Assembly: GCA_903813345.2 (NCBI GenBank)
Contig: CAIIXF020000010.1
Coordinates: forward strand, 28,918,425 to 28,982,424
Direction: 5' to 3'
Source of the DNA: Owenia fusiformis
Taxonomy: Eukaryota; Annelida; Polychaeta; Sabellida; Oweniidae
Length of the DNA: 64,000 nt
A program made the translations under genes and the position numbers. The notes beneath the pieces are model-generated. The model did not search any database. It was not told the DNA's origin and was given only the letters and a program-made list of their open reading frames with translations. This document shows positions 3,112-29,169 of the stretch, piece by piece; the stretch's first letter is position 1, and every line of letters starts with the position of its first letter.

Positions 3112-3223
3112 TAGAACATTGGAACCCCTGGTAGCCGACACCCCAGATCAGCTGGCCACAATGGCAACAGTAGCTTGTGTTATGGTAGTGGGCTGGTTGA
3201 AACAAGTGATTCTTGACAAACAT
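3112..3223 (-). CDS. ARHGEF11/ARHGEF12-like (RhoGEF2): RhoGEF exon: C1 zinc finger, first part
   Basis: A 112-base exon, phase 0 in, phase 1 out, acceptor TTCTTTTGCAG, donor A|GTAAGT. It reads MFVKNHLFQPAHYHNTSYCC then HCGQLIWGVGYQGFQCS. It supplies His6, Cys19, Cys22 and Cys36 of the C1 pattern H-x12-C-x2-C-x13-C, and the conserved Gly and Gln of the WGVGYQG loop. C1 domains bind diacylglycerol/phorbol ester or serve as structural and lipid contacts; the Pro usual in the first ligand loop is not obvious here, so diacylglycerol binding is uncertain. Confidence 0.93.
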
Positions 3224-3686: not shown

Positions 3687-3837
3687 CTTTTTATTAGTTT
3701 TAAACTTGAAAATTTTCTTATCCTTGGAGACAAAGGACGGGTGTCTCTCGATGCTTGCACGGGACACACCCACTTGCTTCAGAAATGTTGCTAAGGCTAA
3801 GGTCATGGCATGGTTGCGAGGGTCATTCACAGTTTCG
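3687..3837 (-). CDS. ARHGEF11/ARHGEF12-like (RhoGEF2): RhoGEF exon: RGSL domain, terminal helix
   Basis: A 151-base exon, phase 2 in, phase 0 out, acceptor TTGAATTTCAG, donor AAG|GTGTGT. It reads ETVNDPRNHAMTLALATFLK, then QVGVSRASIERHPSFVSKDK, then KIFKFKTNKK. This matches the final RGSL helix of the family (pattern MxxALxxYxxHxGV) and its basic tail. A better-looking donor (GTAAGA) lies 4 bases further on, but only GTGTGT gives phase 0, which the C1 exon needs. Both exon A and exon B splice in frame into it. Confidence 0.9.
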
Positions 3838-5031
3838 CTGAAATTCAAAAAACAAACGTTACAACTGAATTTTGCGTTTTAATTTTCATTAAATTACGAG
3901 GCCATTTGAAAATCATGCATATTTTTGATGCAATGCTTTGTGATTTCTCAGTGAATTAATTATTCCTGATATCAAATGTACTATGGTTTATGGACTACAC
4001 CCATAATAAATCAAATATAATATAGAACACATCAAGTCATTGATTTAAGGAAAAAGAAATCCCATACAGTCTCAAGCATTTCCCCAAGAATGTATGAAGA
4101 CTTGAAGGTGTGCATTAGACTGCATTCAGGATTTATCACATTCGACAAAACTTTTTTAATAATTACAATGAAACTTTCTACTTTATGTATCTTTACGTTA
4201 CAGTACTTTACCTTATTCTAGTGCTAAATAAGCAGCATTAAAAAAAATCAGAAGAATCATGCTTAAGTTTGAATTCAGAGAAAAATGAAGCTACCCAATC
4301 CCATAATGCATCATTAATAAGGTTTCATGGGAAGAGATATCCTTTTAGTATGTTACTTCATATAACAAATCTCATTTTGAAGCCTTATACTTTTTTAAAA
4401 AACATTATAATAAACAGTGTTTTAAAGCAATATGAACTGACCACTGCTCATTACAACCTATCTTTAAATGTTACAGTCGACATAAAAAATTTCATTTGTG
4501 TAAGTAATTTAAGTATATAAGTAAAAATAGAAAATCACTCAAATGTAATAACGTTGGCCAGTTCATGCACAACCTTATATCATGATTACAAGAGTTTAAA
4601 AGTTAGTGCAATTAAAAATAAACTCTATGTAGACAGAAATAACTTTGGAAAAGACATCTGTATTCTGATTGATTCACAGAAAGCTACTTATTTTTAACCA
4701 ATCACATTACAGATATCATTTAGTTAATTAGATATATACATTCAAAGTGACAACTTTCTAATATTAAACATACTACTTATGTGCAGTGTTAGGCTAGTTA
4801 GTAAATAGGGAGACAGAAATATTTTGCCGATTAAGCACATTCTTGTTAAATTATCATGCAGAGCCATGCAGACAAAATATTTCGACGATGAATGAGAAAG
4901 TATCAAATTCTTTATCAAGATTTTTCAAGTAAAACACTGAAAGCTATGACTAACGTTCTTTGGATATTTTCTTTTGGAAACAGTTTCCATCAGAGTTCAC
5001 AATCAATATTAAACTATTGTTCGAAAACAGA

Positions 5032-5261
5032 AAAAGCCATACACAAGTTAAGGATAGATTACAAAGGCTCTAAAAGTACATTGATACAAGACTAAGAAAA
5101 GACACATCCATGCAACGAGTGCACAATTTTCTTACAGTAAAAAAACAGAATGAGCCAAAAAGCCATACAAAAAGTTAAGGACAGACTACAAAGGCGCTAA
5201 AAGTACATTTACGCAAGAAAAGACACGTTCATGCAACGAGTGCACAATTTTCTTACAGTAA
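5032..5261. repeat. Tandem duplication of intron segment reaching the exon B donor
   Basis: Two copies, 5032-5139 and 5157-5261, share long blocks such as aagtacatt and tgcaacgagtgcacaatttt followed by cttacagtaa. The second copy ends inside exon B, so the first copy carries a duplicate of the exon B donor. Confidence 0.8.
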
Positions 5262-5365
5262 TGAGTCAAAATGAGGCCAGAGGTATTTATCAATGATACG
5301 AATTTCGGTGGCTCGATCCATGTTGTCAGAGCTCAGCTCGTGGTCCCCAAATATACTCCCTAGTC
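5257..5365 (-). CDS. ARHGEF11/ARHGEF12-like (RhoGEF2): RhoGEF exon B: RGSL alternative exon, version 2
   Basis: A 109-base exon, phase 1 in, phase 2 out, acceptor TTCGTGTAG and donor CT|GTAAGA. With the carried base it reads GLGSIFGDHELSSDNMDRAT then EIRIIDKYLWPHFDSL(L). It aligns end to end with exon A: G(M/L)G..(Y/F)G....L near the start and (I/E)KY..PHF near the end. GLGSIFG is closer than GMGNLYG to the vertebrate GLGSLYG motif. Its donor region is partly copied 124 bases further downstream in the intron. Confidence 0.83.
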
Positions 5366-5834
5366 CTACACGAACACATAACAGTGCAAAATAAACATAA
5401 CATTAACAACAATTAACAATAACTGGTGTGCTATGGGTGTTCCAAGATGCTAGTAAAATAAAACATATATATATAAAAGGAAGATGTCCTATCAGGTAAG
5501 CGCAGTTTTCATTTCAGAAGAGCACTACTTCGTGATATATAGAAATGCTAAAAAATGTGCAACGGTTGTTTCATTTGTTGTCAATATGTATGAGGGGAAG
5601 ATGCTTAACTGTTATGCCCAGCTAAGACAATCCTTGTTTAATTGAATGATACCACGGTACCAGCACATCATTTTTTTCAACAATGCCCTTTCTGAAATGT
5701 TTCCTACGATTCTGATTGGACAATATACAACAACAATGTGATTACAGCAGACATAAGGTGTGGTGTGATGCATGCTTTTTGAACACTAGCATCTTGGTTA
5801 CCCATTATATCCATACGTAAAATGCTATGATGGT

Positions 5835-5995
5835 GATGTTTTCAAATGCAAAATAGAGTGGAAAAGAGGGAAATTATCAAGTAATAAAGTTTACAGGCAT
5901 AGAGCTCTTACTCTAAATTGTATAGAAATGTCGAAAAATCCGTTTCTTCATTCAAATTTTTGAGAGAAATAAATGAAACAAAACAAGCAGACGGA
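5835..5995 (+). repeat. Dispersed 170 bp family, diverged copy next to exon A
   Basis: Contains the family blocks gcaaaatagagtggaaaag, ctctaaattgtatagaaatg and the right end aagcagacgga. See the copy at 44705-44865 for the family description. Confidence 0.65.
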
Positions 5996-6219
5996 TATTC
6001 TAAACGTGTGTTTTTCATCTTAGAAATGTTCTCGAAACATTGAATCAATTTCTAATTTTCAGTCATTAGGACAATTTAATTTTGTGCCGTGCCTGTGGAC
6101 TTTCTTTAATTCCTTAACTACTTGATAATTTCTCATTTTCCCTCTATTTTCCATGAAAAAACTATCAACCGCCAGGGCATTTTCACGCATGAACTCGTAC
6201 CATACATATAATCACTTAC

Positions 6220-6322
6220 AAGTCGTAAAAATGAGGTAGCATGTATTTTTCCGCAATATCTATTTCTGCACTACTGCTCATGTGATCATTGAGGTCTTGT
6301 GTTCCATAGAGGTTCCCCATGC
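6220..6322 (-). CDS. ARHGEF11/ARHGEF12-like (RhoGEF2): RhoGEF exon A: RGSL alternative exon, version 1
   Basis: A 103-base exon, phase 1 in, phase 2 out, acceptor CCATATATAG and donor TT|GTAAGT. With the carried base it reads GMGNLYGTQDLNDHMSSSAE then IDIAEKYMLPHFYD(F). It follows DFRTKRAL, as in family members reading TKRxLGLGSLYG. It is paralogous to exon B. It cannot be spliced to B without a frame shift into a stop codon. The polypyrimidine tract is weaker than for most exons of this gene, as might be expected of a regulated exon (inference). Confidence 0.85.
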
Positions 6323-6670
6323 CTATATATGGTAAAATATTAACACATATCGTGCAGTATGTTGAATTTTACTTAATTTTTGATTATCTGTTTATATTAA
6401 ACCAATAAATGCAATTTTTCTGGAATGTATAAATGTTAGTACATTTTATAGTTATCAAATGAGAAGTTTATGCTGTATTTAAAATCTAAACTTATTTTAT
6501 CATTTCAACTTTCATAAAAATATTCTAACATATGGCCTTACAATTATAGATGTAACTGTTATATGTGTCTGAAAATTTTTCAAAAATGACAAATATGTTG
6601 GTCTTATTCACATTTATTTGGATAAGTTTTATGAAAAAATCATCAAGCAGTTCAAAAGATCCATCCATAC

Positions 6671-6839
6671 CTAAGGCACGTTTCGTCCTGAAGTCAGCCA
6701 AAAGGTCTGCAATTTCGTTTTTAGCGTAATGTTTGGCAAGATGGAACACTGACCTCATAGCATCTTCTTTATCACATTTATGAAGGAGAATATTCTCCAC
6801 ATTTGATACTATGCCTTCCTCTACGTTCATCCTCAGTGG
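6671..6839 (-). CDS. ARHGEF11/ARHGEF12-like (RhoGEF2): RhoGEF exon: RGSL domain, central helices
   Basis: A 169-base exon, incoming phase 0, outgoing phase 1, acceptor TTTATTTTCAG and donor TTAG|GTATGG. It reads PLRMNVEEGIVSNVENILLH, then KCDKEDAMRSVFHLAKHYAK, then NEIADLLADFRTKRAL plus one base. PLR.. and the terminal DFRTKRALG are signature positions of the RGSL family (family: LEDFRxKRxxG). The phase-1 end joins equally well to exon A (6322) or exon B (5365), restoring Gly in both cases. Confidence 0.93.
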
Positions 6840-7169: not shown

Positions 7170-7268
7170 TGCTTTATCCACTAGGAAGGTTGAGTGTATC
7201 TCATAAGCCCATTTCTTCATTTCTTTTAATGAACCCTGTTGGTACTGTTCAGTTATCAAATGGAAAAA
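7170..7268 (-). CDS. ARHGEF11/ARHGEF12-like (RhoGEF2): RhoGEF exon: RGSL domain, helices 2-3
   Basis: A 99-base exon, 33 codons, phase 0 to 0, acceptor TTGTATTCCAG and donor GCA|GTAAGT. It reads FFHLITEQYQQGSLKEMKKW then AYEIHSTFLVDKA. This matches the family segment LLFYLxxxxYQQxSxKExxxxxxxIxxxFLxKxA of the RGSL domain. The donor GTAAGT is in frame, so the open frame runs on into the intron, which could mislead gene callers. Confidence 0.95.
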
Positions 7269-7527: not shown

Positions 7528-7635
7528 CAGTGGTGACGGGTCACTATTGGAAATCAAGTAGTGCATGAAAACAGCAAGATGCGCTGGTTTATTTGACAAC
7601 ATATTCATATCGCTGAAAGATCCGTGGTCGACCAC
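7528..7635 (-). CDS. ARHGEF11/ARHGEF12-like (RhoGEF2): RhoGEF exon: RGSL domain, first helices
   Basis: A 108-base exon, 36 codons, phase 0 to 0, acceptor TTCTTTATTTAG and donor CTG|GTAAGT. It reads VVDHGSFSDMNMLSNKPAHL then AVFMHYLISNSDPSPL. The KPAHLAVFMHY......DPSPL pattern is diagnostic for the RGS-like domain of the p115/LARG/PDZ-RhoGEF family (vertebrate members read RPAHLxVFLxxxxSQxDPxPLL). The RGSL domain binds GTP-loaded G-alpha12/13. Confidence 0.95.
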
Positions 7636-10179: not shown

Positions 10180-10362
10180 TTTTGCAAGAATCAATTCAAA
10201 AAATCTCAAAATGGTGACCATGACATCATCACAAAACAGGCACAAAATTAGTAGCGTATTAGACGGAAACAAATTGATAGTTAAGACAACCTCCAACAGA
10301 TGGGGCCTTGCTTCCAATCTCTGCAAAATCCCTGGGTATGATCCAATCGTATTCTCGACCGC
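10180..10362 (-). CDS. ARHGEF11/ARHGEF12-like (RhoGEF2): Candidate alternative exon encoding an RGSL N-terminal segment
   Basis: A 183-base stretch, 61 codons, opens after a strong acceptor (CCCTTTCCTGCAG) and is open to a possible donor AAA|GTATAA; both ends are phase 0. It reads AVENTIGSYPGILQRLEARP, then HLLEVVLTINLFPSNTLLIL, then CLFCDDVMVTILRFFELILAK. The pattern RP.HL...(L/V)L.....P...LL..L matches RGSL helices and aligns with the product of exons 7528-7635 and 7170-7268, although 8 residues shorter. It could replace those two exons. The donor is weak and other frames here are also open, so the 3' end and even coding status are uncertain; a decayed duplicate is possible. Confidence 0.42.
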
Positions 10363-10876: not shown

Positions 10877-11014
10877 ATGTTCATCATCTGTCGAGAATTC
10901 TTCGTCCTCCATTGATATGACGTTAACCTGGTGGGGAGAGACATGTTGCAAAGGCTGCTGGGATTGAGTCGCCTCATGTGGTATAGGGCTAGGAGGAACC
11001 ACGGAAACAGAAAC
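10877..11014 (-). CDS. ARHGEF11/ARHGEF12-like (RhoGEF2): RhoGEF exon: pre-RGSL acidic motif
   Basis: A 138-base exon, 46 codons, phase 0 to 0, acceptor ATTTTTATAG and donor CAT|GTAGGT. It starts VSVSVVPPSPIPHEATQSQQ and ends VNVISMEDEEFSTDDEH. The ISMEDEEF stretch matches the conserved IIGAEDxDF element just before the RGSL domain in p115-RhoGEF and LARG; in that family this acidic segment contacts G-alpha13 and contributes to GTPase activation. Its phase-0 end can join either 10362 (candidate alternative exon) or 7635 (main exon). Confidence 0.88.
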
Positions 11015-11094: not shown

Positions 11095-11706
11095 TTAAAG
11101 GAATATTCCTTGCCAAACCATCTCTCTCCTCATATGGTAGCTATAACCATATATATGCTTGTCATGTTTCGCAAAACACGCAAAAATGTTTTGATATGGT
11201 CAAATTTGATCACTTAGAAATGTGATGCTCAATTCAAGTAAGCTGCCATCTTTTAAAATTTCACACAGGAAGTGATGTCATCGACTCTTAACTTTGCATA
11301 TAGCATTAGGTGAGGACCTATTAAAAATTACAAAACCAGCTAAATATTCTTTTTCAACTTTTTCAATCTTATTTAATCCTTCTGAAAATCTCTTCTTTTA
11401 TTTTAAGTTGACAAGCCCTGAAAATATTTGTGCACAGAAAGTAATGATCACTTGTCTAGAAGTGATTTTGTGCTACTTTCCTATACTGTTATGGGCAAGG
11501 TTATAGAAGTTGAGAGTTGATGACATCACTTCCTGCAAGAAATCTTAAAAGATGGCAGCTCACTGGAAATAAGCACTAGATTTTTAAATGATCAATATTG
11601 ACCATATTAAAACATTTTCCCATGTTTTGCTAAATATGGAAACTATATATATGATTATAGCTACCACATCAAGAGAGAAAGGGTCTGGCAAGGAATATTC
11701 CTTTAA
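11095..11706. mobile_element. TTAA-flanked long foldback element (piggyBac-like ends)
   Basis: TTAA at 11095-11098 and 11703-11706 flank a 604 bp element beginning AGGAATATTCCTTGCCA and ending with its complement. The two arms, about 190 bases each, match imperfectly for their full length and enclose about 220 bp of unrelated centre. No transposase frame. The TTAA duplication is what piggyBac-type transposases make. Confidence 0.75.
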
Positions 11707-27680: not shown

Positions 27681-28467
27681 CTGAGAAATGAAACGAAGAC
27701 AACATGCATGTATGTGTTTAAGATGCATTTACACCTGGTACAAAATTAAATAAACAATGCAGTGGAATTGATAAATGACAGAGTACGAAGTAATCATGCT
27801 AAAAACCAGGGTGATCATTTGAATTCCAATATTTTTCAAGTATAAACGATGAAGAAATGCCTAATATGGAAATATATGATCACCTTGATTTAATACTTTA
27901 AGAATTGTGCACCACGATAACCCAAAATGCATTGTGAATGAGAGAAAGAAAATAATTGAAACTAATAATTTTCAATAATACATATATCGCAATATACTAG
28001 ATAAAATATAACAGAAAATATGACAACTAAATAATACAATACAAACAAAATAATAATAGTGCATGTTGTTCAGCATTCAGTATTAAACTTTGCAAATCAT
28101 AATGATAATATTGATAAGATAGGACAAGTGCGCCATGAGGATATAGACCAATGGGCCGTCACCAGTAGAAATATACTCTGAAGATGGTTCAGTAAAACCA
28201 TGTAATAACTCTTTTGAAAATCAACACTTTTTGGTCAATATTATACTTTCAGTTAGGCAATGAAAATAGCCTTTCGGCACAATACAGTTAGGCAAAACAA
28301 GTACAATATAATGGTACCCTATTGAGCAGTCCTCCATATGAAGACTTTTAGCCCCTTCTTATAGTTCATTTATCTTTGTACAAAAATAATACCATCCTGA
28401 TTCTACAAATATGCAAACAATAATACAAAGATAATGAGATTTGGAATAATCATAACAAAACACCTAC

Positions 28468-28676
28468 CTCTGCCGCAGATGGACTGCTGATTCTGTCTAA
28501 ATGTATGCTGTGCCGTTCTGGGCGCTCACTCCCTGATCCTGGTGAGGCAAGGTGTGATATTGTGTTATGGCTCCCGCCTGATTGATAACGAGGCTGTGGA
28601 GGTGGCTCTAGGGGTTTTGATTTAGTGCTGCCCCCTGGTGGACGCCCAAGGAGTGTGAGAGTGACGTAAGAGCCCG
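28468..28676 (-). CDS. ARHGEF11/ARHGEF12-like (RhoGEF2): RhoGEF exon: last strand of PDZ domain plus linker
   Basis: Acceptor TATTTCCAG, donor GAG|GTAGGT, incoming phase 1, outgoing phase 0, 69 full codons. The first residues, GSYVTLTLLGRPPGG, match the final beta strand of the ARHGEF11/12 PDZ domain, where the family reads roughly SGSYVALTxxGRPPG. The remainder is a proline- and serine-rich linker containing PLEPPPQPR and SGSERPERHS, probably disordered. The phase-1 start requires an upstream exon encoding the peptide-binding groove of the PDZ domain; I did not find it. Confidence 0.85.
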
Positions 28677-29169
28677 CTGGAAATATAAGAACAGAACATT
28701 AAATTCAGTGACTTAAATTCTCAAGATTTTTTTATGAGTATCAAGATCTCACAATGCTCATTTTGCAGAATCACATCCATGTTTCGTATCATATACTACA
28801 AGAGTCTAAGCTTGAGTTTAAGCTTGTTTAATCATTTTAAGTATACCACAACAAAATTGTTTTAGGAACCAAAACGAGAGTCTGAAAATAGGCTGAAAAT
28901 ATACTCGAGTAGAACTGTACATTTTGTAGGTTATGACCATGTTGTCTATCAAGAGCTTTTTTGGCGGAAACACTGGATAAAATTTCTCATCTTATGTTAA
29001 CAAAATGCTCAACTTACATAGCAACATGGTACTATATTAGAGAAAGTTACACAACAACAAGTTGTAAAAACATATCTTAATAAAAACATCATGTTATACG
29101 ATAACCTTCAAAACAAGTTGGATCAGAGCCAGAATCGTGACATCTTCCCACTCAAAGACAACAAACAGT

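Follow-up and report, generated by a model that had tools for sequence, protein, structure and literature searches.

Candidate mutually exclusive exons in the RGS-like domain of a RhoGEF gene of Owenia fusiformis

Exon pair, reading frame and known counterparts

The window analysed here is a stretch of 64,000 nucleotides from the annelid Owenia fusiformis (contig CAIIXF020000010.1, positions 28,918,425 to 28,982,424), in which two neighbouring exons encode similar segments of an RGS-like (RGSL) domain. The locus raises the question of whether these exons, A and B, serve as alternatives in a single protein. The reading that we consider very probable from the genomic evidence is that A and B are old, constrained mutually exclusive exons, produced by tandem duplication within a single RGS-RhoGEF gene.

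Exon A (6220-6322, minus strand, 103 nt) and exon B (5257-5365, minus strand, 109 nt) are arranged head to tail and separated by intron A-B (5366-6219, minus strand, 854 nt). They encode the peptides GMGNLYGTQDLNDHMSSSAEIDIAEKYMLPHFYDF and GLGSIFGDHELSSDNMDRATEIRIIDKYLWPHFDSLL, respectively, each including one base from each of two exons common to both paths. Exon U, upstream (6671-6839, minus strand, 169 nt), ends in ...RTKRAL plus one base, and exon D, downstream (3687-3837, minus strand, 151 nt), begins with the third base of a split codon followed by ETVNDPRN... At the first junction U supplies the first base of a codon and A or B the next two; at their other end A and B contribute the first two bases of a codon and D the third. 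GT-AG sites flank both exons, with acceptors ...ATATATAG/G for A and ...CGTGTAG/G for B and donors CTT/GTAAGT for A and ACT/GTAAGA for B. The exon coordinates, the phases (1 to 2 for both) and the lengths that are not multiples of three were given correctly in the initial annotation.

The joins U-A-D and U-B-D are both open, as checked from the exon at 10877-11014 to the first exon of the C1 domain. When A is joined to B, the frame closes at a TGA 72 nt short of B's end, and when U is joined to D with both exons skipped it closes at a TGA 143 nt short of D's end, so that the frame stays open with one exon at a time, as had been proposed. A and B are thus adjacent homologous exons of the same phase and similar length, and both their joint inclusion and their joint skipping are non-productive. 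The peptides share 14 of 35 aligned residues and score 64, whereas 5000 shuffles average -18.7 and do not exceed 30; the resemblance is beyond chance, and the suggestion that the two exons are paralogous is borne out. Protein searches of the 498-Mb genome (E cut-off 10, with a query of 41 residues for A and of 43 for B, best candidates scored, masked stretches read as N) returned two places for each peptide, namely itself and the partner exon 957 bp away, and no third copy was found among the best candidates scored. A search for relatives outside this genome, in a bacterial and archaeal collection, gave 37 pattern stretches, none of them confirmed.

In the mechanism proposed, an ancestral RGSL exon would have been duplicated in tandem long ago to give A and B, and each productive transcript would take one or the other. 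Two RhoGEF proteins would result, differing solely in a stretch of 35 or 37 residues within the C-terminal extension of the domain that binds G-alpha. Transcripts with both exons or with neither would be cleared by nonsense-mediated decay, an outcome expected from the established rule because more exons follow in the gene model. Frame and decay appear to be the visible enforcement of exclusivity and would in principle be enough for it. Exon anatomy, frame arithmetic, homology and the constraint on both copies are read from the sequence, while the splicing of both exons into transcripts is what we infer.

Tandem duplicated, mutually exclusive exons form a well-described class, according to the available parts of several reports (PMC9741552, PMC5740500, PMC6071210, PMC9013439). 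As far as those parts describe them, human mutually exclusive exons (PMC5740500) and tandem duplicated exon substitutions (PMC9741552) share with A and B the adjacency of homologous exons, the similar length, the identical phase and the frame shift if combined; joint inclusion or skipping is non-productive in about 60% of the human clusters, not in all (PMC5740500). Unlike these catalogued human pairs, A and B are known here from genomic sequence alone. Mutually exclusive exons are also described, in the portion available of PMC5896119, for G-alpha genes (GNAO and the cephalochordate preGNAI/preGNAQ). These belong to the same signalling pathway and likewise place a duplicated exon at a protein-protein interface, but they vary the G protein, whereas A and B would vary a RhoGEF whose relatives bind it. 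Among the literature matches listed, judged by titles and abstract openings and including few subscription papers, no equivalent is described for an ARHGEF gene or RhoGEF2, in agreement with the initial annotation, which knew of none in ARHGEF11/12. One endometrial cancer splicing survey (PMC7272712) contained, in the text available, all three terms of one such literature query, once each. The assignment of A and B as a new case within the known class of mutually exclusive tandem exons appears well supported at the sequence level.

Host gene and fit to the RGS-like domain

The gene is most simply read as an RGSL-C1-DH-PH RhoGEF. Its RGSL exons include E1 (7528-7635, minus strand, 108 nt) and E2 (7170-7268, minus strand, 99 nt). 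An exon at 10877-11014 (minus strand) carries an acidic motif, EDEEF, that aligns to EDEDF of p115RhoGEF, and the first exon of a C1 domain lies downstream of the RGSL domain (3112-3223, minus strand). Pieces of PF00621 together with PF17838 (PH_16), representing the DH and PH domains, share the strand of the RGSL domain and lie some 6-9.4 kb below the window. A PF09128 RGS-like domain followed on its strand by DH and PH domains, with all exons presumably joined into one transcript, identifies the gene as an RGS-RhoGEF. These RGS-like, DH and PH domains are shared with ARHGEF11 (PDZ-RhoGEF), ARHGEF12 (LARG) and ARHGEF1 (p115RhoGEF); unlike those three, the gene has a C1 domain after the RGSL domain and a duplicated RGSL exon. 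A C1 domain in this position is a feature of Drosophila RhoGEF2 and is not known from ARHGEF11, ARHGEF12 or ARHGEF1.

Across the genome PF09128 matched no more than two places, each of them an exon of this gene (three candidates were scored, exon by exon, so that a split relative could escape), and the gene looks like the sole RGS-RhoGEF gene of the genome. One gene may cover roles that are spread across three paralogues in vertebrates. A PDZ domain was not confirmed for the gene: of the 109 PDZ places in the genome none falls within the window or close to it, and scanning the window for a motif at positions higher than 20000 gave no match. The piece GSYVTLTLLGRPPGG (within 28450-28698), which we take to resemble the end of the PDZ domain of PDZ-RhoGEF/LARG, matched no Pfam family. 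Contigs C1-C12 contain every one of the 42 RhoGEF places and 104 of the 109 PDZ places, the other 5 PDZ places being on C243 and C244, a distribution that suggests about 12 chromosomes. A search for COX1 found none.

Two further elements were noted in the same gene. A candidate exon at 10291-10362 (minus strand, 72 nt, phase 0/0) would add 24 residues between EDEEF and the RGSL core; its acceptor has 14 pyrimidines out of 16 and its donor, GAG/GTTGTC, is weak. The match of isoform A to p115 (1shz) is 39.6 bits without this candidate and 31.2 bits with it, and given this reduction the candidate exon could represent a cassette that is skipped and by which the GAP motif is uncoupled. In an upstream intron, an 18-base sequence at 11687-11704 is the exact reverse complement of 11097-11114, resembling the ends of an element with inverted repeats, and the element at 11097-11704 is probably mobile.

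Both isoforms fit the RGS-like profile PF09128 almost equally, with 134.5 bits for isoform A and 133.1 bits for isoform B (cut-off 27). An artificial in-frame join lacking both exons scores 114.1 bits; since its alignment ends before the tail of the domain, the gain of 19-20 bits over this control reflects the exon plus the tail. With their neighbours only, A and B reach 31.7 and 30.2 bits on the RGS-like profile, and the peptides alone, being short queries, matched no Pfam family. The best solved relative is 1htj (KIAA0380), human PDZ-RhoGEF, to which B (104.4 bits) is matched slightly better than A (101.3 bits). In the isoform A query the match to the canonical RGS box (PF00615) spans residues 12-109, and the A segment begins behind it, at residue 126. 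The A/B segment is located in the C-terminal extension behind the canonical box, which agrees with its earlier placement in the RGSL domain's C-terminal half.

Functional effect of the swap and age of the duplication

RGS-RhoGEFs convert G-alpha-12/13 signals to RhoA activity. The GAP activity of p115RhoGEF is ascribed, in the part available of PMC9700851, to an N-terminal hairpin with an EDEEF-like motif, and its RGS-like box is described, in the part available of PMC2954821, as contacting the effector face (switch II) of G-alpha-13. Autoinhibition of PDZ-RhoGEF involves the RGSL domain (PMC2695464). The initial annotation held that the swap could change G-protein selectivity or GTPase-activating strength. 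Selectivity is the likelier of the two, and the second proposal is weakened because the EDEEF motif sits in the exon at 10877-11014. With that motif in another exon and the RGS-like box meeting the effector face of G-alpha-13, a change in affinity, partner choice or coupling to G-alpha-12/13 would be likelier than a change in GTPase activation. The swap may thus tune G-alpha-12/13 binding or coupling, or RGSL-mediated autoinhibition, and not GAP catalysis. The available parts of PMC9747239, PMC10432399 and PMC3636079 give no RhoGEF-side G-alpha contact residues in the A/B segment. Natural isoforms differing in about 36 residues would provide a ready-made test of the role of the C-terminal RGSL extension.

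The identities of A and B to human PDZ-RhoGEF (14 of 34 and 12 of 37 aligned residues) are similar to the identity between A and B (14/35). The constitutive front of the RGSL domain is identical to human PDZ-RhoGEF at 48 of 115 residues and the tail at 6 of 24. Among 36 human-anchored columns, six are the same in all three sequences, six are shared by A and B only, six by A and human only and six by B and human only, and in 12 none agree. This even three-way split, together with the similar identities, indicates a duplication that is either old or fast-diverging; it fits a duplication near the time of the split from the vertebrate lineage as it would a fast divergence, which would look alike. 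A fuller version of the older date, in which an ancient switch from about the vertebrate-lineage split gives one gene two G-alpha-12/13 receivers, where vertebrates have three genes, with exclusivity set by competing intron pairings, is rather unlikely.

Control of exclusivity and coding constraint

Competing RNA structures could set exclusivity in addition to frame and decay, and are compatible with mutually exclusive use of A and B, but we consider them unlikely. The candidate site in intron A-B (6119-6134) would pair either with 6634-6649 in intron U-A, looping out A, or with 4894-4909 in intron B-D, looping out B. Their joint score was matched by only 3 of 200 Markov shuffles. This test, however, was picked after the repeats and the single-pair results were known; the joint score was matched by 25, 2, 13, 21 and 8 of 165 real window blocks at arm lengths of 12, 14, 16, 18 and 20, and the single-pair scores by 6, 162 and 110 of 200 shuffles. 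Intron A-B folds more stably than its shuffles (z -5.6), and its first half (5820-6219), at z -8.1, is more stable than any of the 90 control windows, the lowest of which is at -7.3 (10 shuffles each). One hairpin in this intron is unusually stable, but it is local to the intron, with one arm overlapping a dispersed repeat, and z of -4 or lower is found in 6 of the 90 controls too. The other half of the intron (z -3.4), intron U-A (z 0.7) and intron B-D (divided into four pieces with z between -2.1 and 1.4, exon B being contained in the final one) are not unusual. Competing structures in introns U-A, A-B and B-D were tested as a splice-level control of exclusivity and were not established. The dispersed repeat (5850-6005) has at least 46 places, including the query and its own inverted arm, mostly at 77-83% identity and many on contigs C4 and C10.

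Steric blocking, which involves a donor-to-branch point distance under about 50 nt, is ruled out by the 854 nt of intron A-B, and U2/U12 incompatibility by the GT-AG sites with U2-like donors throughout.

The pair might also act as a level-control device, in which decay-prone transcripts with both exons or neither reduce the output of RhoGEF, with little difference between its two proteins. The premature stops of both non-productive paths, 72 and 143 nt short of an exon end, speak for it, yet that two diverged, constrained coding copies have been kept suggests value at the protein level, and a single cassette exon would presumably suffice for level control; this alternative is decidedly improbable.

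A further alternative is that one copy is a decaying relic or a rarely spliced exon and the other alone is in use. The identity between A and B at codon positions 1, 2 and 3 is 19, 25 and 14 of 35 (Fisher p = 0.008 when position 2 is compared with 3, and p = 0.022 when positions 1 and 2 together are), in a protein-guided alignment that is biased towards positions 1 and 2. Neutral decay was simulated to the observed third-position identity of 0.40. The score of B against human PDZ-RhoGEF was matched in 0 of 1500 runs of decay from A, and that of A in 0 of 1500 runs from B. Under milder decay, A gave 0 of 1500 passes at 0.55 and a fraction of 0.0013 at 0.70, and B gave fractions of 0.0013 at 0.55 and 0.0087 at 0.70; with A-B similarity as the criterion the models were not told apart at 0.70, where a fraction of 0.37 passed. 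Neutral decay of A or of B is rejected at the observed divergence, and both copies look to be under coding constraint.

The relic is favoured by the short pyrimidine tracts of both acceptors, each with 10 pyrimidines out of 16 and tied lowest among 10 acceptors of the gene (one other has 10 and seven have 11-14), from which either exon could see little use, and by a copy of the end and donor of B that lies 121 nt downstream as a possible decoy. Against it stand the open frames and GT-AG sites of both exons, their equal profile fit and the simulated decay, and it is very improbable. The copied end of B belongs to an imperfect tandem duplication (5031-5154 / 5157-5275, spacing 121-127 bp) that repeats the last bases and donor of B and provides a second GTAAGA downstream. 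Read-through beyond the donor of B leads to an immediate TAA.
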